Notes under the pieces: generated by a model | Told to the model about the DNA's origin: nothing | Database searches by the model: none | Seen by the model: the letters and a program-made list of their open reading frames with translations, nothing else | Origin: a virus | Strand: one strand, 5' to 3' | Length of the DNA: 21,267 nucleotides | IMG/VR virus record: IMGVR_UViG_3300021425_000226 | Coordinates: 1 to 21,267 of that record | In this document: piece by piece, positions 3,119 to 19,102 of the stretch | Layout: each line of letters begins with the position of its first letter | How positions within the stretch are numbered: position 1 is the first letter of the stretch | Made by a program: the position numbers and the translations under genes

Positions 3119-4498
3119 TCAAGCGAGGACGTTGATTCCGAGAATCGAGCTTCTTTCTTCCGAAGTCGCTCCGCCAGCATACACTTGGCCTGCTTGCTTG
3201 TGACCTTGGAAGTCGAGGCGTTGATAGGAAACCAACTGCCAACGGTCATACTCTGCACGAGCGTCTTGCTGAACTTTGACTCGGATTGGGCGACGAAGAC
3301 CCAAGTAGAATCTGCGAATGTTAGCAAGGTGAATGACAGTCTTGTTGGTTGTCGCTCCGTCATAAACGCCAGAAGCGTTGAGGTCTTCACGAACAAACTC
3401 AGAGACGAGGATTGGAATACCACGGAACACAGCGAGTGCACCCGTGAGGATAGTTGCTTGTGGTCCGAATTTCTCGACAGTAGCAACTTCGTCAACGTTC
3501 AGCATCTGAGCGTAGCCGGATGGTCCGACAACCCAAGCCAACTCTTTCGGGTTAGTTCCGTATTTGCCCATAGCTTTACGCATAGCATCCAAGCCGGACT
3601 TAGTAACACCAGCGCCAGTGAAGCTGTGTGTGCTGCTTGCTTCGAGAGCGAGCTTACGGAGGCCTTTCCATGCTTTCTGGTTAGAAGCAGCAGAAAGAAC
3701 ATCGCTGTCCATGTGTGTGCCGCTGTTGTCACCATTGATGATTGCATCTTCAACTGCACGAATCTGAGCCTGAAGAACTTCGGCACGAGCCAGTTCCAAG
3801 ATTGCTGGAGCAGAGTCCTCGTTGAGTTCTTCTGGAAGAACATAGTACTCAACCAATTTCTTAGCATCGAACTGAATTTTTTCAGTGTTGAAGCTGGAGT
3901 CAGTTGAAGCAGCGCCTTCGCCAATCAAACGAGCTTTGGTCACACCTTGTTGCACTGGCAACTGGAATGGGTTTGTGCTCATCGGAATTTCTTTCAGAGC
4001 GCCAGCGAGCTTACGCTCCAATTGGTACTCTTCGATGTAACTAGCTGAAATTGCTGTTGGAACCCACTCATCACCCGATCCAGCGACTGTCGAACCGAAG
4101 CTCTTAAGACGAGCTTTGAGGTCAACCGAACGAGCGAAAGGAGTTTCGAGAACGCCCTTAACATGAGCAACACGCTCATCATCACGGTCGAGAGCTTCAC
4201 CGTTGAAGATTTGCGCTTGCATACGAGCAATGTCCATGTCTTTCTTGAGCTGAACGACAGCAGACTTTGCATTCTCGCTGATGTGAGCAAAGCGAGGATG
4301 AGCTGTGTTCACTTCGATGAGGCTCTTTACATTGCTAACACCGAAGCTGTTCAGCAACTTTTGCTCGTCGCTATTGCTTCTGTTGCTGAAGCTAGTAGCT
4401 CCACCAACGATGTTGTTAGCTTTCGCCTTCTCGATTTCGCCAAGAGCAGACTGCACTTTTGTTTCAAACGCAGCCAGCCGTTTTTCCAAATCTGACAT
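3119..4498 (-). CDS. Major capsid protein, HK97 fold
   Basis: The gene encodes 459 residues from the ATG at 4498. This start is chosen because GGAGG lies 5 bases upstream; an alternative start 13 codons earlier has no such site. The N-terminal ~100 residues begin MSDLEKRLAAFETKV, a charged coiled coil matching the delta (scaffolding) domain of HK97-type capsids that the prohead protease removes. The body shows hallmarks of the phage_capsid family: a P-domain helix region (LARAEVLQAQIRAVEDAIING), VVGPSGYAQML, GIPILVSEF, and a late beta segment with RRFYLGLRRPIRVKVQQDARAEYDRWQ (written here in parts: RRFYLGLRRPIRV and QQDARAEYDRWQ). The length is typical of capsids carrying the delta domain. 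It sits directly downstream of the protease-scaffold gene and is bracketed by two hairpins. The fold assignment is secure. The cleavage site is not visible with confidence. Confidence 0.93.
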   Translation of the reverse strand: MSDLEKRLAAFETKVQSALGEIEKAKANNIVGGATSFSNRSNSDEQKLLNSFGVSNVKSLIEVNTAHPRFAHISENAKSAVVQLKKDMDIARMQAQIFNGEALDRDDERVAHVKGVLETPFARSVDLKARLKSFGSTVAGSGDEWVPTAISASYIEEYQLERKLAGALKEIPMSTNPFQLPVQQGVTKARLIGEGAASTDSSFNTEKIQFDAKKLVEYYVLPEELNEDSAPAILELARAEVLQAQIRAVEDAIINGDNSGTHMDSDVLSAASNQKAWKGLRKLALEASSTHSFTGAGVTKSGLDAMRKAMGKYGTNPKELAWVVGPSGYAQMLNVDEVATVEKFGPQATILTGALAVFRGIPILVSEFVREDLNASGVYDGATTNKTVIHLANIRRFYLGLRRPIRVKVQQDARAEYDRWQLVSYQRLDFQGHKQAGQVYAGGATSEERSSILGINVLA

Positions 4499-4507
4499 AA
4501 TACCTCC

Positions 4508-4528
4508 AAAAAAGCGGCTGACTGCCGC
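4508..4528 (-). terminator. Terminator-like hairpin abutting the capsid SD
   Basis: On the minus strand GCGGC-AGTCA-GCCGC is followed by six T, and the T-run touches the GGAGG ribosome site of the capsid gene. It has the form of an intrinsic terminator or attenuator but lies only 9 bases before the start codon. It could act as a processing or stability element, or an attenuator, or keep the SD exposed. The stem is perfect but short (5 bp). Confidence 0.6.
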
Positions 4529-4562
4529 AAAGTTCAATGCACACTCATTGTGCTTCGGTCAC

Positions 4563-4589
4563 AGTGTAACACAATTAGACGAATTTCAA
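4563..4589 (-). promoter_or_regulatory. Possible extended -10 promoter for the capsid gene
   Basis: On the minus strand TTGAAA is followed 15 bases later by TGTTACACT, an extended -10 form (TGn plus TACACT). A transcript would start near 4556 and give a leader of about 58 bases containing the hairpin at 4508-4528. The spacer is short, so only the extended -10 supports it. A separate capsid promoter would fit the high demand for this protein. Confidence 0.35.
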
Positions 4590-5893
4590 GCAAGTATGGC
4601 CTTGAGCTTTGCCTCATACTCGTCCAAAAGTTTTTTCATTTGTTCCTCGGCTTCTGGCTCCATCTTCTCTTCTTCGACAGGAGCTTCGACTTCTTCTTCA
4701 ATTTTGACAGGCTCAGGTTGCTTGAGGGCTACCATAACATCTTTCAGGCCGTCGAGCTTGTGAGAGATAGCTCCAAGCAATTCGAGCTGAGACTTCATCA
4801 TCATGAGAACTGCGTTGTCATTCATGTCAAACTCGCTCGGTACTGCAACTGTTTCTTGCGACTGGCCGTTCTGTTCAGCTTGCTTTATTTTGTCACAATC
4901 AGCAAGCCACTTGGTCATCATCTCACGGCTAGGCTTAAACTCAGAGCAGCCTTTTTCCTTGCTGCACATAGAAATTGCAGCAGCAACTGCTTGCTCTTGT
5001 TCCATGCCTTCTTCAAGCAGAACTGGAATCTTTGCCGACACGCACTCTTGAACAGCTTGGTCGAGAGTTTCCATCTCAGCTTTTTCTTCTGCTGGTTTTT
5101 CTTCTTCCATTTTTTCTTCTGGTTTTTCCTCAGCGTCCATCGACTTCTGCTTCTCAACGTCTTGAGCGTTAGCATCAGCCAATTCGTTTTCCTCAACACC
5201 AAGTACCGAAACGATTGCCGACAGCACAGGTTCTGGGACAGGAGTCACGTTGCCAGCAAGCACTTCAGCAAGCTCTGCTGGTTCGGAGCCAGATGCTTCA
5301 CCGAGCTTCTCAAGCAATTCTTCTTTCTCTTGACCAGCTTCTTCGAGCTTTGCCATCGCTTCAGCAGCGAGCTTGGCGACCATTGCTCCCTTTGCTTTGA
5401 GAGTCATCGCTCTCAGGTCTTTAACTGACTTGACGTTTGCCAAGCTGAAAGTCGAGTCCGGTTGTGCTGGTATGCTCACGATTGATACCTCCTGAAGTTC
5501 CCAATCTTTGATAAGTTTTCCACCCTGAACTTCAGGGTCTTCCACAACAGTTTCATCAGCAAATCGAATTGAGAATGTGCAAAGCGTTCCGTCCTCAACC
5601 AAATCTCGGACAAACGATACTTTGTCATTCCCAGATGCTGAAACGCAGGCACGAACGAACACACCGTCTTCACGGGCTTCAACCGCAAGCACCTTGCCAC
5701 AGGGATACATCATATCATGATTGAATAGCAGAATAGGGTTTTGCTTGAAACGGTCAAGTTTCACGCTCGTCGGGTCCATTCTCTCGTTGTATGCGTCCGT
5801 GAAAAACTTGTTCGCATAACCTTCAATGATGACTCCACCCTTCGGAGCTTCATCACCGAGTGCTTTCGTTTTGTTGAATCGTTGAAATCTCAT
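4586..5893 (-). CDS. Prohead protease (S78 family) fused to a scaffold-like tail
   Basis: The gene encodes 435 residues from an ATG at 5893 that overlaps the portal stop (ATGA), with GGAGAAAG upstream. Residues 1-150 match the HK97 prohead protease family. They include NPILLFNHD with probable catalytic His58, CTFSIRF with probable Ser106, and the family motif ELQEVSIVSIPAQPDS near 130-145. The remaining ~290 residues are Glu/Lys/Ala-rich and coiled-coil-like, with low-complexity Glu runs, as in protease-scaffold fusions. Within them near 285-325 is a segment QECVSAKIPVLLEEG followed by QAVAAAISMC, a short motif seen in other phage head proteins. The role would be to guide capsid assembly, then cleave the capsid delta domain and itself. 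The separate scaffold gene normally expected is absent, which agrees with a fusion. Confidence 0.88.
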   Translation of the reverse strand: MRFQRFNKTKALGDEAPKGGVIIEGYANKFFTDAYNERMDPTSVKLDRFKQNPILLFNHDMMYPCGKVLAVEAREDGVFVRACVSASGNDKVSFVRDLVEDGTLCTFSIRFADETVVEDPEVQGGKLIKDWELQEVSIVSIPAQPDSTFSLANVKSVKDLRAMTLKAKGAMVAKLAAEAMAKLEEAGQEKEELLEKLGEASGSEPAELAEVLAGNVTPVPEPVLSAIVSVLGVEENELADANAQDVEKQKSMDAEEKPEEKMEEEKPAEEKAEMETLDQAVQECVSAKIPVLLEEGMEQEQAVAAAISMCSKEKGCSEFKPSREMMTKWLADCDKIKQAEQNGQSQETVAVPSEFDMNDNAVLMMMKSQLELLGAISHKLDGLKDVMVALKQPEPVKIEEEVEAPVEEEKMEPEAEEQMKKLLDEYEAKLKAILA

Positions 5894-8499
5894 GGGGCTT
5901 TCTCCGCAAGTTCTTGTAGCTCTGTTTGATACTCTGCCATATCTTCTGGCGAAAGCGTAATCAACGAGCACCGACAGTTGATTGTTTCTTCAGGGCGTCC
6001 GTTCGGGTCTTGCGGATACATCAAGTCCACGCTCGGAAATTTCTGATCATGTTTTACCACTGTGCCGTTCAATTGGCGGTGTGAATCTCTGACTTCATCG
6101 TCTTGAGCTGTGACCCATGCCTTTTGCAAATCGGGAATTGCCTTTGCAGCAGTCTGCATGAGTGAACCTGAACCAATTGACGTTGCTGTCAGAACTTCTG
6201 TCCGAGCAATCGTGTTTGCTCTGCTTGCAGCAATGCCTTTCTTGACCAAGTTTCTGGATACCTCATCGACTGACAGATTGTTCTTGATGCCGTCTTCGAT
6301 GACTCGCAACACTGAATTGAGAGATGTGTCTCCGATTGTTTTGAATGTTCTAAGCCCACGAGCTGAAAGTGTCGTTTCTCGTGCTGCTTTATCTGTGAGT
6401 CGAGCTGCTTCGAGCGATTGTCTTGCAGTCTTGTCGAAGATGAGTTCCAGTTGGAGACTATATCCAATGTCCATCGAGTCAGAGAGAATGCTGTCATATA
6501 ACTTGGTGTATTGCTTCTCAAGAGAATCGAACATCTTCTGCAAACGCTTGCGATATTCTGCGAGCTTCGGCAATCCTGCTTTAATTCCCTTCTTACCTTT
6601 GAGAGCTTTGACGGCCATTTCTGTTTGGTCAGCGAACAGGTCAAGGCTCCACTTGTACATCTTCGGCATATCTTTTTTGAGATGAGCCGTCATGGAGTCA
6701 TTGTTTGCTTTGATTTGAGCAGAGTACCTACCCATTTCTTTTGTTTGACTAGCATTCACTTCGAGCGGTTGCTCAACTGGCATTTCAACCGGAGCAGATG
6801 GAGGTGCTTCGTCAGCTTTTTCTTTTTCGTCAGCAGCCTTCATTTGGCCTTGAACCTTCTCGCACCAGCGTTTGCCAGCGTCACCGCCCCATAGCTTCCA
6901 AGCTATTGCACCTGCTGTCGGTTCACCGTTTTGTTCTTTGTTGTCGCCTTCTCCATCGTGTCTTGCAAAATAGCTCACCATGCGCTGGATAGTATCCGGT
7001 AACACAGTGCGACGATTCTTCAATTGAACTGCTCTAGCAACGCCGACTTCTGTTCCACCTCGACCGTATTTCTGACGCCACTCAAGCCCAAGAGCTGCTT
7101 CGTCGGCAACATCCTGTGGTGGCTTGAAATCAATATGTTCATAAGCAACGGGGATGGCTTTATATTCCAAATCAGAGCCGTCATCCTCATCGACAGCTTT
7201 CACGTCTGGGGCTGACAGTCCCATGAACGGCAAAGCTGGCATTGAACCGGGGGTTGTATCGCCTCCATCCAAGGCTGGCAGTCCGAAGATTTGTGCTCGC
7301 ACTTCATTCAATGTGTGTGTTGACAGAAGCATCGTTGCCATTTCAGCTTGAGAGCGCAAGTCTTCTTGCAAGAACGAAACTTCAGAAGTGTCGAAGCATA
7401 CCTGCTCGTCTTGCGAAAGCATTCCACATTTTCTGAAATGACGAGTCAAAGCAGAAGCAATTGCGTTCGCAGTAGGAATCAGAGCTGTTTGCCAGAAATA
7501 CTTCAAGCTCATCTTGTGTTCTTCGGAGCCGAGTGAGCCAGCTTCTTGCAGCGACACAACGTGCTTCGGAATGTGCAATGTGTTTAGTATTGTCTCACGA
7601 TTCATACGAACCAAATCGACGATGCCTTGGTCTGCAATCTTGTGGTCAGCGGCATTCCACTTCACGCCCTTCGGAAGCAACATCGTTCGACGTTGGTTGC
7701 GTCTCCCTGTGTGAGCCATCTCGAAGGAGCGGAGCAACCTGAGAACTGATTGCTCATTCGCTGCTTGATCCATCTCAAGAATACCTTGAGGCGTAGCACC
7801 TTTTAGATAGAACGAGTTCAAATAATCTTGCGAATAACGGTTGAATAGAATTGAACGACGACCGGGTACAAAGGGGCTTAAACCCCACACTGGACTTGAT
7901 GGATTCGGTCTTCGACAATGAGCCATTTCATCCAGACCAATCGAAATGCCCTTGGTCAAGCCGACGATGATTTCTTCGGAGTCGGGATAGACAATGTAGC
8001 CTTTCGGCAAATGCTGCTGGTCAAAGTCATATTGAACTCGGTCGAAGCTAATATGATAAAGCTCTTTAGTTGCTTTTGCGTGATAGATAAAAGAGTTTCC
8101 ACCGAGCACATAGTCACAAGCTAGTGAGTATTTAAGTTCGGTTCCGTCTGACCATTTGTTTGGATTGTCGAGCAAGCTCATTACTGGATGATATTGAACT
8201 GGCTTCTCAATCGACTGACCATCTTCGACCGTCTTGCGAATGACTTGAAACGGAAGCAGAGAGATTGGCTGTGCGAAAGCATCAACTGTGATGAACACCC
8301 AGTCTTCTGAGAAGAATAATGCCTTCAAGTTCTGACTGGTCATGAACGCTTTCGTCTCGACTGCCCACACGCTGTTGTATGGTTCGTCAGATGGAAGTCC
8401 GTTCGGATCGATGTACCTCAGTCCATAATCACGAGAGCTTCGCCTAGTCTTTCTTTTCGCTGGCTCTCCTGACGATGACTGCTCCTTTCGCTTTTGCAT
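5890..8499 (-). CDS. Portal protein fused to MuF-type head morphogenesis domain
   Basis: The gene encodes 869 residues from the ATG at 8499 (GAGG upstream). A TTG at 8538 and an ATG at 8514 are alternatives, and the overlap with the CsrA-like gene makes the exact start uncertain. Residues ~30-410 form an HK97-type portal, with PVMSLLDNPNKWSDGTEL, DYVLGGNSFIY, WGLSPF and the LHIPKHVV region. Residues ~450-555 are a separate domain common in phage head operons (ALGLEWRQKYGRGG, VGVARAVQLKNR, SYFARHDGE, IAWKLWGGDAGKRW). After a Pro/Glu-rich linker, ~590-869 are a MuF head-morphogenesis domain, with IARTEVLTATS, the DDEVRDSHRQLNG motif and the ending PEETINCRCSL. The portal is the dodecameric packaging vertex and MuF is a minor head protein injected or bound at that vertex. 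These are usually separate genes, so this is a natural triple fusion. Confidence 0.9.
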   Translation of the reverse strand: MQKRKEQSSSGEPAKRKTRRSSRDYGLRYIDPNGLPSDEPYNSVWAVETKAFMTSQNLKALFFSEDWVFITVDAFAQPISLLPFQVIRKTVEDGQSIEKPVQYHPVMSLLDNPNKWSDGTELKYSLACDYVLGGNSFIYHAKATKELYHISFDRVQYDFDQQHLPKGYIVYPDSEEIIVGLTKGISIGLDEMAHCRRPNPSSPVWGLSPFVPGRRSILFNRYSQDYLNSFYLKGATPQGILEMDQAANEQSVLRLLRSFEMAHTGRRNQRRTMLLPKGVKWNAADHKIADQGIVDLVRMNRETILNTLHIPKHVVSLQEAGSLGSEEHKMSLKYFWQTALIPTANAIASALTRHFRKCGMLSQDEQVCFDTSEVSFLQEDLRSQAEMATMLLSTHTLNEVRAQIFGLPALDGGDTTPGSMPALPFMGLSAPDVKAVDEDDGSDLEYKAIPVAYEHIDFKPPQDVADEAALGLEWRQKYGRGGTEVGVARAVQLKNRRTVLPDTIQRMVSYFARHDGEGDNKEQNGEPTAGAIAWKLWGGDAGKRWCEKVQGQMKAADEKEKADEAPPSAPVEMPVEQPLEVNASQTKEMGRYSAQIKANNDSMTAHLKKDMPKMYKWSLDLFADQTEMAVKALKGKKGIKAGLPKLAEYRKRLQKMFDSLEKQYTKLYDSILSDSMDIGYSLQLELIFDKTARQSLEAARLTDKAARETTLSARGLRTFKTIGDTSLNSVLRVIEDGIKNNLSVDEVSRNLVKKGIAASRANTIARTEVLTATSIGSGSLMQTAAKAIPDLQKAWVTAQDDEVRDSHRQLNGTVVKHDQKFPSVDLMYPQDPNGRPEETINCRCSLITLSPEDMAEYQTELQELAEKAP

Positions 8500-8656
8500 C
8501 TGCTTGTTCCTCATCCTGCAAGACTCCGAGTCTTTCAATCTTCACGTCTTTTGGAGCGTCAAGGACGATGCGAGCACCACGGCTTGCGCTTACGATAATC
8601 ACTTGGTCACCGACTTTGAGTGCCTCACCTTTTTTAAGTTGCACGACCAGTGGCAT
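8444..8656 (-). CDS. CsrA-like small protein between terminase and portal
   Basis: The gene encodes 70 residues from the ATG at 8656, a start chosen because its N-terminus MPLVVQLKKGEALKVGD aligns with the first residues of CsrA/RsmA. GGAG lies 11 bases upstream. An ATG at 8698 inside the large terminase end gives a 14-residue longer form. CsrA features present are the GE pair, the IGD-like VGD, a Gly before RI, and APKDVKIER, which matches the CsrA core APKDV plus the RNA-contacting Arg44 position. Differences are a gap of about three residues between beta strands, Leu/Lys at the usual Arg6/Arg7, and Leu after the final Arg instead of Glu. An extra charged tail of ~25 residues follows. CsrA dimers bind GGA motifs in mRNA leaders. 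A different small beta protein such as an FlbT-like phage protein remains possible. Confidence 0.6.
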   Translation of the reverse strand: MPLVVQLKKGEALKVGDQVIIVSASRGARIVLDAPKDVKIERLGVLQDEEQADAKAKGAVIVRRASEKKD

Positions 8657-8687
8657 CTCGTCTCTGCTCCGATTTGTAATGATTGAG

Positions 8688-10112
8688 TCAGAAGTCATCA
8701 AATTCGTCGGCAATGGAAGCGTACCACGATTCCACAGAAAGGGCAGTTTTCGGAAGGTCTTCAATGAAACGCACGTCAAACACCTTGTCTTGTGTCTCAA
8801 GGACTGCCGACCATGCGAGAAAACAAGCGGTCACAATATCGTCATGTAAACCGGGTGGTGCTGAGTACGTTGGTTTTCCGAGCACACTCATCTTCACATC
8901 GTAGTTATCATGCTCTTTTATCAACTCAGGCCAGTTCGGAAACACGAGATTGCGTGTCTCAATGGCGACCATATAAGCATCGACCATCGAAGACTTGCTT
9001 TCGTTGGTGAACACCACAGGGTCAATCGGATACGGAATGCTGGACATCATGTCATTGATAACGTCACCGATACCAGTTCGGTCATGACGAACCAGCAGCA
9101 CTTCATCGAACTGATTTCCGAATTGATAAAGTTCACGAATTGCTATCTTGTAATCAAGGCCTTGAAACCTTCTGAAGCCTACAATCTTGGGGCGAGAAGT
9201 GCCGACCTCGAATGCAATGAACACTCCGTAGTCAGTACGTTTCGCCCAGTCAGCACCAATGACGACCTTCTTTGACTTTGCATCTGGAACTGTCCAGCTC
9301 TGCATTTTTCCATACGTTTCAACCAACTCGCCTTCAACACAGTCCCGATGACCAACGAATACTGAGCCGTCATCCATGAACTCTGCAAGGTAAAGCTGTC
9401 TGAACAATCTATCCGGCAACGACAGTCGAGCTTGTTCAACGACACGCTTGTCAACATATGGCGAATCAATCGTCCGAGCGGTCGCACAGAATTGCTCGTA
9501 TGGCTTTTGATGTTTCTCTGCCCAAGTCATGTGCTCTTGGCATTGGCGATACAAGTCATAAAACCAGTTTTTTCCACGAGGAGTAGATGTGCAGGCAATC
9601 CACCCACCAGTCTGTGAGGTAGTGGACATGACAGAAGCGAACGTCTGAGATGAACACTTTGCTGCTTCATCAATCAAATTGCCATGAGTTCGTTCGCCTT
9701 CGATGCTTTTTTCTGGGTCTTGAGCGTGTACGCATTGAATCATCGCACCGTTGTGATTCCACTTCATCTTCATTCTCGACTCAGAGCGTTCGGGAGTTAT
9801 CTTCTCCCACATCTCCTGAGCGGCTCGGTACTGCTTCGGATCAAGTCCAGATTGCGGAGGCAACACCGATGGAAACAAGCGGTCAAGATACTTGAACGTG
9901 ATGCTCGCTTGCTGATATGTCGGAGCGATAATTCGATACAAAGCAGCTTGCTCTCTCGGAGCTTGAAAGCTGAAGTTCGCAATTCGTCCAGCACCACCCA
10001 AAGTCTTGCCGCACTTAGTGCCGAGAGCAAGGCACATTAGTCTAGTCTTCTCTGTGATGAGATGTTGCTGCCATGTGGCATATGGCTTCGGGAGCTTGAT
10101 GTTGAAGCTCAT
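8688..10112 (-). CDS. terL: Terminase large subunit (TerL)
   Basis: The gene encodes 474 residues, and its ATG overlaps the small terminase stop (ATGA). The N-terminal ATPase has Walker A ALGTKCGKT (residues ~29-37), Walker B NLIDE (~145-149) and the coupling motif CTSTPRG (~174-180). The C-terminal RNase H-like nuclease starts with VVIGADWAKRTDYGVF (Asp288), continues with HDRTGIGD (Asp344) and ends with GLHDDIVTACFLAW (Asp424/Asp425), which supply the metal-binding acidic residues. It drives DNA translocation through the portal and cuts the concatemer. The Walker B deviates by having Asn-Leu-Ile before Asp-Glu. The packaging mode (cos or pac) cannot be decided here. The stop overlaps the longer possible start of the CsrA-like gene. 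Confidence 0.95.
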   Translation of the reverse strand: MSFNIKLPKPYATWQQHLITEKTRLMCLALGTKCGKTLGGAGRIANFSFQAPREQAALYRIIAPTYQQASITFKYLDRLFPSVLPPQSGLDPKQYRAAQEMWEKITPERSESRMKMKWNHNGAMIQCVHAQDPEKSIEGERTHGNLIDEAAKCSSQTFASVMSTTSQTGGWIACTSTPRGKNWFYDLYRQCQEHMTWAEKHQKPYEQFCATARTIDSPYVDKRVVEQARLSLPDRLFRQLYLAEFMDDGSVFVGHRDCVEGELVETYGKMQSWTVPDAKSKKVVIGADWAKRTDYGVFIAFEVGTSRPKIVGFRRFQGLDYKIAIRELYQFGNQFDEVLLVRHDRTGIGDVINDMMSSIPYPIDPVVFTNESKSSMVDAYMVAIETRNLVFPNWPELIKEHDNYDVKMSVLGKPTYSAPPGLHDDIVTACFLAWSAVLETQDKVFDVRFIEDLPKTALSVESWYASIADEFDDF

Positions 10113-10636: not shown

Positions 10637-10655
10637 CATCAAGGAGGCACCGATG
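10637..10655 (+). promoter_or_regulatory. SD hairpin (AGGCA loop), bulged variant
   Basis: CATC (10637-10640) can pair with GATG (10652-10655), and GG (10643-10644) with CC (10650-10651), around an AGGCA loop; AA is bulged. The GGAGG ribosome site and the start codon are both inside. It is the weakest of the four similar hairpins in this window because of the bulge. Confidence 0.4.
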
Positions 10656-12568: not shown

Positions 12569-13454
12569 CTGATGCCTCCTTTGCTGTTTGCTTGTCTTCG
12601 ATGTGCTTGATTTGCGAGTTCGTCATCGTGACTCCAGTGTGGTAGCTTCTCCTGACTTCTGTCAGGTCACGGAAGCACCACTCCAGACTGTGGCCTTTGG
12701 AAATAAACCATGCTTTGTTCATCATGACATAGTGCTGAACCAAGGCTCGTCCCTCATCGACTCCAACTTCCTCGTAAATTTTCTTTGCCCATCGGTTCGC
12801 TTCCTTTCCACGGGTAGGTTCGAATCCGTACTTGTTCGAATAGGCAAGCGCATATGCCTCAAAGATAAGCGAACCGCCTGTTGGCTCTTTGCTGGCTTTG
12901 CGGGCGTTGTCAACTTGATTCTGAGCTTTGACGGCTGGAACTCCTGTCGAGTTCTCACGTTGACAGACGACAGGAGACGCAGTGGCGTCAGCCGCTGAGA
13001 CTGTATTAAATACTAAATCTAGTTCAATTTGATCTAGTTCAATTGATCTAGTTCCATGTGCAATGGTTGCACTAGCCTCCTGCAATGGTTGCACTAGGGC
13101 TTGTGCAATGGTTGCACTAGGTGACTCGTTTTTTTGTTGTGATTGCTCTTTGCTTAACCATTGAGCAACTGCGTTGATCTTGATTAGATTAGGTTTCATC
13201 TCAGCTTTGCGAGAGCGTATTGATATAATATTAAGCGATTCGAGAGTGCCGAACGCTGAAGTCACAGACCGAGGTGAAATGTTACATGCTTGAGCAATGT
13301 TGCTTCTTGATTCGAAGCATTGTCCTCGTAGTCCAGCTCGATAGATGATTCGATTCAGCACCAAGAACTCAGTCGGCTGGAGATTCAGCTCCCAAATCTT
13401 CGTTGGAATTTGAGTGAACGAATATTCAATCTCAGAAACAAATTCATCAGACAC
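12492..13454 (-). CDS. Replication initiator carrying an internal origin
   Basis: The gene encodes 320 residues from a GTG at 13454 with a perfect AAGGAGG six to seven bases upstream. Residues ~15-100 are a winged helix (LQPTEFLVLNRIIYRAG, SRSNIAQACNISPRSVTSAF, then a wing ending IKIN). Residues ~105-190 are low-complexity and encoded by the DNA repeats described below. Residues ~200-290 are a domain found at the end of many phage replication proteins (LIFEAYALAYSNKYGFEP, KIYEEVGVDEGRALVQHY, KGHSLEWCFRDL). This three-part plan, with iterons in the linker, equals that of lambda O-type initiators. The protein would bind the iterons, melt nearby AT-rich DNA and recruit the host helicase. The SD is embedded in a hairpin holding a fourth binding-like site, which suggests autoregulation. 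Confidence 0.75.
   Translation of the reverse strand: MSDEFVSEIEYSFTQIPTKIWELNLQPTEFLVLNRIIYRAGLRGQCFESRSNIAQACNISPRSVTSAFGTLESLNIISIRSRKAEMKPNLIKINAVAQWLSKEQSQQKNESPSATIAQALVQPLQEASATIAHGTRSIELDQIELDLVFNTVSAADATASPVVCQRENSTGVPAVKAQNQVDNARKASKEPTGGSLIFEAYALAYSNKYGFEPTRGKEANRWAKKIYEEVGVDEGRALVQHYVMMNKAWFISKGHSLEWCFRDLTEVRRSYHTGVTMTNSQIKHIEDKQTAKEASDEVQRSNGELASAWARIDTSRTIKV
13017..13058. repeat. Three-copy direct repeat beside the iterons
   Basis: ATCTAGTTCAATT occurs at 13017-13029 and 13032-13044, with a third copy, ATCTAGTTCCATG, at 13046-13058. The spacing is 15 and 14 bases. It lies inside the initiator coding region, directly next to the iterons and to AT-rich sequence (12995-13020). It could be a second protein-binding set or part of the unwinding element of the origin. 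Confidence 0.8.
13059..13120. repeat. Origin iterons, three copies of TGCAATGGTTGCACTAG
   Basis: Exact 17-base copies lie at 13059-13075, 13081-13097 and 13104-13120, with periods of 22 and 23 bases, about two helical turns. Each contains the inverted repeat TGCAA-TGG-TTGCA. They sit in the variable linker of the initiator gene, as in lambdoid origins, and are followed by T-rich sequence at 13128-13137. This is the most likely replication origin in the window. Confidence 0.85.
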
Positions 13455-13458
13455 AAAA

Positions 13459-13488
13459 AGCCTCCTTGCTATGGTTGCAATGGAGGCT
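13459..13488 (-). promoter_or_regulatory. SD-sequestering hairpin with fourth initiator site
   Basis: On the minus strand AGCCTCC pairs with GGAGGCT and TTGC with GCAA, an 11-bp stem with one bulged A and a 7-base loop. The GGAGG ribosome site of the initiator gene is wholly in the 3' arm and a run of T follows. It can act as a translational block or as an attenuator. Within it, 13467-13479 (TGCTATGGTTGCA on the plus strand) differs from the iteron core by one base, so the initiator could also bind the DNA here. Confidence 0.65.
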
Positions 13489-13538
13489 CAAAGGCGGTAG
13501 TTTCGCTTTGAACATGCCACTTCAACTGGTTGTTCCAC

Positions 13539-16529: not shown

Positions 16530-16973
16530 TTACGGTTGCTTATCTGTACCTGACTTGTCGCTTGACTTCAAGTTGATCATCTTCTCCAGCGTCAGACAGT
16601 CCGCAAAAAGAAGCTCGACGTATTTCGGCCACATAAGCTCAAGCTCATCTTCGCTGTGCATTGATGGAGCCATAAGTCCGAGACTGGTGTGCTCCAGACC
16701 AAGGACGCAGTGACCCAGTTCGTGGAACACAAGCTCACGTTTTTGATATTCGCCCATGTCTTTCCATTTCGTTTCGTTCAGTAAGATGCCGAAGCTCGAC
16801 ACGCAGTATCCAGCGATGTTTTCTTCAAGTCGTGCGAAGTGCGTTCGGATTGGAAATACGAAACAACCACGCTTGTTGGCTTCTCGATAGAACTCTTCAG
16901 TCTGCTTCTCGAAGCTCGGTGCGGATTGACATGCAGTGATTAGCAAAATTAGCAAAGATGAAATAATGAGCAT
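16530..16973 (-). CDS. Lipoprotein zinc metallopeptidase of the lysis cassette
   Basis: The gene encodes 147 residues, with an ATG behind AGGAGG. The N-terminus MLIISSLLILLITACQS is a lipoprotein signal with lipobox ITAC and acylation Cys15. The peptidase motif is HELGHCVLGLEH (His84, Glu85, His88, His95), followed by a possible Met-turn in LGLMAPSMHSED. The spacing HEXXH-x3-G-xx-H is one residue longer than the usual metzincin HEXXH-xx-G-xx-H. Similar HELGHC lipoproteins occur in phages and Gram-negative bacteria. As the last gene of the lysis block it could cut envelope proteins or crosslinked peptide, or act as an outer-membrane partner like a spanin. Its actual substrate is unknown. Confidence 0.8.
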   Translation of the reverse strand: MLIISSLLILLITACQSAPSFEKQTEEFYREANKRGCFVFPIRTHFARLEENIAGYCVSSFGILLNETKWKDMGEYQKRELVFHELGHCVLGLEHTSLGLMAPSMHSEDELELMWPKYVELLFADCLTLEKMINLKSSDKSGTDKQP

Positions 16974-16986
16974 GAGGTGCCTCCTC
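16974..16986 (-). promoter_or_regulatory. SD hairpin (AGGCA loop) before the lipoprotein gene
   Basis: On the minus strand GAGG-AGGCA-CCTC is a perfect 4-bp stem with a 5-base loop ending exactly at the ATG. The GGAGG ribosome site is split between the stem and the loop. It is one of four such hairpins in the window. Confidence 0.55.
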
Positions 16987-17988: not shown

Positions 17989-18059
17989 AGTGCCTCCAGA
18001 ATTTTGTTGCAACTGATGTTTGTTTGTGCAAAAAGCATGATTCACCTTACCACAATTCA

Positions 18060-18074
18060 ATCGGAGGCACCGAT
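18060..18074 (+). promoter_or_regulatory. SD hairpin (AGGCA loop) before the recombination operon
   Basis: ATCGG-AGGCA-CCGAT is a perfect 5-bp stem with a 5-base loop. It ends at the base before the ATG at 18075. GG of GGAGG is in the stem and AGG in the loop. It is the most regular member of the family of four. Confidence 0.65.
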
Positions 18075-19087: not shown

Positions 19088-19102
19088 GTAGGAGGCACCT
19101 AT
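19088..19102 (+). promoter_or_regulatory. SD hairpin (AGGCA loop) before the annealase gene
   Basis: TAGG-AGGCA-CCTA is a 4-bp stem, extended by one G-U pair, with a 5-base loop; its 3' arm overlaps the A of the ATG at 19101. It follows the RecE-like stop by 31 bases. It belongs to the same family as the hairpins at 16974, 18060 and, more weakly, 10637. Confidence 0.55.

Follow-up and report, generated by a model that had tools for sequence, protein, structure and literature searches.

Does a CsrA-like protein encoded among the late genes of a phage still control translation by binding RNA, or has it become a component of the virion? The question is raised by a gene in the window, i.e., the whole 21,267-nucleotide stretch of viral DNA analysed here (IMG/VR record IMGVR_UViG_3300021425_000226). 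The carrier is an unclassified tailed phage, and the gene sits between its DNA-packaging and portal genes. The original prediction had placed a CsrA-like protein inside a packaging/head operon at 8444-8656; these coordinates were right, the strand is minus (ATG at 8656, stop codon ending at 8444; translation MPLVVQLKKGEALKVGDQVIIVSASRGARIVLDAPKDVKIERLGVLQDEEQADAKAKGAVIVRRASEKKD), and both the family identification and the operon location held against Pfam, PHROG and the gene neighbours. The plus-strand reading of the same interval bore no relation to CsrA. At the level of sequence, we consider the 70-residue product of the minus strand confirmed as a genuine member of the CsrA family. Each of the core landmarks named beforehand (GE, VGD, RG-x-RI, APKDV, and the equivalent of R44, here R42) was found in the 70-aa translation, as were a three-residue shortening of the beta3-beta4 hairpin (the conserved Asp and Ala are separated by 17 residues, versus 20 in E. 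coli) and an altered N-terminal Arg pair (R6 to L7 and R7 to K8). The coding sequence comprises the beta1-beta5 core, followed by a C-terminal extension, GA[VI]IV[RK]RA.E, that is conserved among the relatives.

The protein scored 28.0 bits with the Pfam CsrA family (PF02599), for which the cut-off is 27 (E 2e-6). The relatives L030 and L018 also scored above this cut-off (28.2 and 31.8 bits, respectively), and some others reached 25.8-25.9 bits in a six-frame search. The best PHROG was 8397, annotated as 'CsrA-like regulator' (E 1e-5, 26 bits), which was also matched by two relatives (E 2e-6 and 6e-6), with other PHROGs scoring worse, and a profile-profile comparison with nine canonical viral CsrAs gave a probability of 93.9%. 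The window protein scored 18.3 and 22.4 bits against the NCBIfam equivalogs TIGR00202 and NF002469 (cut-offs 70.1 and 73), which were also missed by a canonical viral CsrA (62.7 and 65.2 bits). The portal frame gave another weak CsrA match at 6184-6300 (14.8 bits), which was attributed to chance.

Like E. coli CsrA and P. fluorescens RsmE (2JPP), the window protein falls within PF02599 and follows the beta1-beta5-alpha order; unlike these CsrA/RsmA proteins, it carries Leu, Gln and Gly in place of R6, T5 and E46, has a beta3-beta4 region three residues shorter and an extra C-terminal strand, and lies about 50 bits under the equivalog cut-offs. In E. coli CsrA, the residues ranked by importance are R44, V42, L2, I47, V40, L4, R6 and R7 (Mercante et al. 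2006, as cited in a passage of PMC6692469). The equivalents of L2, A36, P37, V40 and R44 are identical in the window protein, and four further changes in the clade are conservative (L4 to V, V42 to I, I47 to V or I, and R7 to K). Seven of the eight main positions are therefore identical or conservative, and one, R6, is lost. The R44 equivalent, in beta5, is invariant across the window clade; the canonical R6/R7 pair is replaced by L7-K8 in the window and in all relatives, so that position 7 stays basic. The same passage of PMC6692469 reports that R6A and E46A each weaken regulation by C. jejuni CsrA, and that R6A does so in E. coli as well.

An AlphaFold monomer model built from a nine-sequence alignment had a pLDDT of 83, with strands at residues 3-7, 11-15, 18-22, 28-32 and 40-45 and a helix at 48-56. 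A Foldseek search of this model against the PDB returned no CsrA, the native CsrA being an intertwined dimer and the query a monomer. Against viral models, Foldseek gave only a low-ranked 'carbon storage regulator', and in VIA-align the sole CsrA-type match listed was RsmN (4kji), a rearranged relative of CsrA, with a Z of 2.1. A canonical viral CsrA run as a control, also with nine sequences (pLDDT 76), retrieved CsrA structures first (E 2e-3, probability 1.0), although the control drew on a more varied alignment and was nearer in sequence to the targets. On the basis of these models, the missing CsrA match in Foldseek and VIA-align does not prove a different fold, but leans against a standard one.

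Relatives of the protein were found on 14 viral contigs and were 80-86% identical to it. Within this clade, residues 20-46 contain only three variable positions, and dN/dS over codons 1-46 was 0.07-0.11 (about 0.08) in comparison with seven relatives; judging from these codon comparisons, the gene is under purifying selection. Divergence at four-fold sites was 0.17-0.29 in the csrA-like gene versus 0.55-0.67 in terL and portal (six pairs). In most genome pairs, the silent divergence of the csrA-like gene was also far below that of terL, portal or protease. An RNA element spanning the whole gene was first suggested by this low silent divergence and is disfavoured by mosaic patterns, c3704 resembling the L002 group in its 5' half and G002 in its 3' half. 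These patterns suggest recombination inside the gene and make recombination together with codon bias the likelier source of the low silent divergence.

The genomic position is equally constant. The order terL, csrA-like gene, portal was observed in all 14 contigs carrying relatives, and the full order (terL, csrA-like gene, portal, protease, capsid) in every contig, unless the contig ends. In a separate scan, all 13 of 13 close terL relatives lay on contigs with the csrA-like gene. In the window, all of these genes are on the minus strand: the terminase large subunit at 8688-10112 (PHROG terL; tblastn), a portal protein with a fused Mu-F-like head morphogenesis domain at 5890-8499 (PHROG portal and head morphogenesis), the head maturation protease at 4586-5893 (PHROG 80), and the major capsid protein at 3119-4498 (PHROG 10). 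Immediately upstream of the capsid Shine-Dalgarno sequence, at 4498-4530 on the minus strand, a GCGGC-AGTCA-GCCGC hairpin with a T run after it has a terminator-like appearance, and GCCGC or CCGC with a T-rich stretch is recognisable before the capsid gene in relatives. Sixty-seven contigs with terL matches of about 22-30% identity contained no CsrA-like ORF above E 0.1; since many of these matches are partial and the contigs short, a CsrA-less terL slot in such distant contigs says little. Profile searches of genome contigs with terL and the csrA-like protein, aimed at the host, found no relative.

In every relative, the csrA-like gene comes directly after terL, and its own end overlaps the portal gene. 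The conserved ATG at 8499 is the most likely portal start, giving a 56-nt overlap, with a probable Shine-Dalgarno sequence, GAGGA, at 8508-8512 on the minus strand, inside csrA codons 49-50. A portal ATG and a GGA-containing Shine-Dalgarno sequence are located inside csrA in every relative, and this retained position implies coupling of the two genes. The leader of the csrA-like gene itself (8657-8671, minus strand; CGGAGCAGAGACGAG) includes the Shine-Dalgarno sequence GGAG, and leader alignments showed that GGAGC[AG]GAGAC is kept before the start in every relative, including one with 39% GC. RNAalifold and pair counts predicted a 12-bp helix that would sequester this Shine-Dalgarno sequence, with its 5' arm at 8658-8670 and its 3' arm at about 8553-8569 on the same strand, within codons about 30-35 (ATCGTCCTTGACGCTCC). 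All 120 of 120 cells were paired; four pairs vary, one of which is doubly changed in the window sequence, and the duplex was found at the same site in 12 of 12 sequences. Among 500 shuffles, 49 gave a helix as good. These results are no more than suggestive of sequestration of the csrA Shine-Dalgarno sequence.

We tentatively favour, at somewhat less than even probability, a regulator derived from CsrA that is made late and acts on the late mRNA of the phage itself; its closest counterparts are the proteins of PHROG 8397. The protein would be made from the terminase-portal-capsid mRNA and would bind the phage's own late mRNA, presumably as a homodimer. The target would be the protein's own start, at which translation would be limited, and the portal start would be limited too, through the coupled start within the csrA coding region. 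The outcome would be that the amount of portal is set relative to the capsid protein. Such a regulator is favoured by the Pfam score above the cut-off, PHROG 8397 as the best match, the key residues kept at seven of eight positions, the nearly invariant core and the low dN/dS, as well as by the conserved gene order, the leader with its helix, and the portal start inside csrA. It is opposed by the change of R6 to Leu and E46 to Gly, the lack of a CsrA match for the AlphaFold monomer while the control matched, the loss of R44 in four late relatives (described below), the statistical weakness of the helix, and the ability of recombination to explain the low silent divergence.

The strongest competitor is a CsrA fold turned virion or head-assembly protein, its RNA recognition lost or fading, which would form a small dimeric piece of the head or neck or be carried within the virion to the next cell; we regard this as rather doubtful, and it has to be judged against similar genes in other phages. 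These were surveyed by searching with the CsrA-like protein of BcepMigl and then reading the gene contexts. In Lessievirus, Parlovirus, Skulduggeryvirus, Pavtokvirus, Lastavirus and Ittyvirus, a CsrA-like gene lies between portal and major capsid; in F116 and 8P, it stands lower among the structural genes. PHROG 8397 was scored for BcepMigl, F116-late, 8P and SopranoGao (110, 118, 73 and 47.5 bits, respectively), the window protein matching it far more weakly, at 26 bits. In a small profile comparison, the window clade was nearer to the late-operon group (E 1e-9) than to canonical CsrA (E 2e-6). Proteins of the PHROG 8397 type (Lessievirus BcepMigl gp50, JC1 gp47 and CSP3; also Parlo, Skulduggery, PEp14, SopranoGao, Itty13, the late F116 gp47, and Pseudomonas phage 8P) are, like the window protein, small CsrA-family proteins of late structural operons. 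All late copies, including those of the window clade, the Bcep22-type podoviruses and F116, carry [DEQ]-[LI]-[KR] where canonical CsrA has [ST]-R-x, the window thus sharing this motif in place of the canonical T5-R6-R7. Whereas the window gene occupies the slot between terL and portal, the PHROG 8397 genes are flanked by portal and major capsid or stand lower among the structural genes; the window proteins also differ in being shorter in beta3-beta4, in keeping R44, and in having a GA[VI]IV[RK]RA extension that overlaps the portal start. Canonical phage CsrAs (F116 gp24, PHROG 5527; Vibrio phage D65, PHROG 9500; and many IMG/VR contigs) are likewise phage-encoded members of the family but have LTR or LSR in beta1 and lie outside the structural genes where this was checked (F116 and D65). 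FlbT, a regulator of flagellin mRNA (PF07378), showed a weak N-terminal similarity to late-operon CsrA-like proteins (E 0.002 for Skulduggery and 0.05 for the window); all of these matches were below the cut-off, FlbT is longer, and kinship is at most putative.

A virion or assembly role would fit the late-operon position in several phage groups, the absence of R6 from all late-operon copies, and the weak structural match to CsrA. The window clade and most Bcep22-type copies retain R44, which is lost in Parlo, Itty13, F116-late and 8P, and RNA binding is therefore not what unites the late-operon family. F116 pairs a canonical csrA outside its structural genes (gp24) with a separate late copy that lacks R44 (gp47), and the CsrA-like gp47 of JC1 was detected in CsCl-purified virions by one unique peptide, although the authors state that its presence was not definitively confirmed (PMC9144972). 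The window clade, however, invariably keeps R44, V40, A36 and the basic position 7, none of which a purely structural role needs. A broader version, also on the unlikely side, is that a distinct late-operon CsrA subfamily across unrelated phages, distinguished by the missing R6 and partly by the missing R44, has left canonical GGA regulation, acting as a head or virion-borne factor or recognising another RNA motif, with the window clade as a member that keeps R44.

CsrA genes have been recorded in 30 of 2,517 phage genomes (PMC7366521), and in publications on Bcep22-type phages they are treated as 'moron' genes (PMC9144972, PMC10269572); phage csrA and CsrA-like genes within structural operons are thus already on record (PMC7366521, PMC9144972, PMC10269572). 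What is new is the position between terL and portal, the extra lineage, the loss of R6 common to late copies, for which no description was found in the searchable literature, and the coupled start inside csrA. The window adds a further phage lineage with an almost invariant late-operon copy, whose beta1 change is common to the Bcep22-type and F116-type late copies. Judged from sequence comparison, altered CsrA copies among late virion-protein genes may represent a recurring late-phage use of the CsrA fold, and an answer in a cultured relative (JC1 or F116) would give this recurring gene a function.

Returning to the regulator, its targets were originally sought in unusual GGA-containing hairpins at the leaders near 10637, 13459, 16974, 18060 and 19088, a link that failed as stated. 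In comparison with shuffles, the leader at 13454 was clearly stabler (z -2.65), that at 16973 was borderline (-1.9), and the other three were ordinary, so that GGA hairpins were rejected as an unusual feature of these leaders. In all five, the Gs of the GGA are base-paired in a stem, and the GGA is also the core of an ordinary Shine-Dalgarno sequence; canonical CsrA favours a looped GGA, and pairing of the GGA hinders binding (PMC7652899). The stabler hairpin is located in the replication-initiator leader (13454-13490, minus strand; GAGCCTCCATTGC...GCAAGGAGGCTTTTT) and buries the gene's own Shine-Dalgarno sequence; a similar GCCTCC/GGAGGC inverted repeat occurs before rep in c3929.

A different element, GGAGGCAC, joins CAC to the Shine-Dalgarno core and recurs upstream of several non-structural genes throughout the clade; we take this clade-wide element to be real. 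In the window, it precedes the 112-aa ORF starting at 10653 (10643-10650), the 77-aa ORF upstream of the exonuclease gene (18063-18070) and recT (19091-19098) on the plus strand, and a 147-aa ORF (16977-16984) and a 58-aa membrane-like ORF (17990-17997) on the minus strand. A promoter or transcript start was rejected as its nature, there being no conserved -10 pattern upstream. The element could mark the targets of an early-to-late translational shut-off, similar in outline to that of T4 RegA, in which the late-made protein would bind the element and block translation at the starts of early or recombination genes; we consider this improbable. Across the clade, CAC follows GGAGG at 19 of 75 start sites versus 7 of 156 other GGAGG sites (Fisher p 8e-6, the sequences being related and not independent), and recT and the 112-aa and 77-aa ORFs are among the genes preceded by the element, which is not found before the capsid or protease genes. 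Such a shut-off is nevertheless hard to reconcile with G004, a relative that carries the csrA-like gene yet lacks GGAGGCAC in its 28 kb, with the stem-paired Gs of the named leaders, with GGAGG as an ordinary Shine-Dalgarno core, and with the occurrence of the element before a few genes of unknown timing.

Still less probable is interference with the host Csr system, by competition for host Csr RNAs or by mixed dimers of the phage and host proteins. In the intertwined CsrA dimer, the RNA surfaces are shared between subunits (PMC7652899), and a variant subunit could for this reason poison the host protein. Competition with host Csr is weakened as a general role, however, because the Burkholderia hosts of related csrA-bearing phages of the Bcep22 type lack a chromosomal csrA (PMC7366521), and the late operon is expressed when such a take-over would be least useful. 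A degenerate, non-functional remnant or a chance resemblance to CsrA, as modest bit scores near the Pfam cut-off might suggest, is highly improbable and already contradicted by conservation, i.e., by the near-invariant core in 14 contigs, the strong purifying selection, and the conserved leader and position.

Leaders were also inspected in the Bcep22-type phages, where canonical GGA control was rejected as a general feature of the csrA-capsid leaders, GGA being kept in only some of them. In several of these phages (L034, L119-L123, L125 and L126), the operon is compact except for a leader of roughly 100 nt (191 nt in CSP3) that separates the csrA-like gene from the capsid gene and is predicted to pair near the capsid start.
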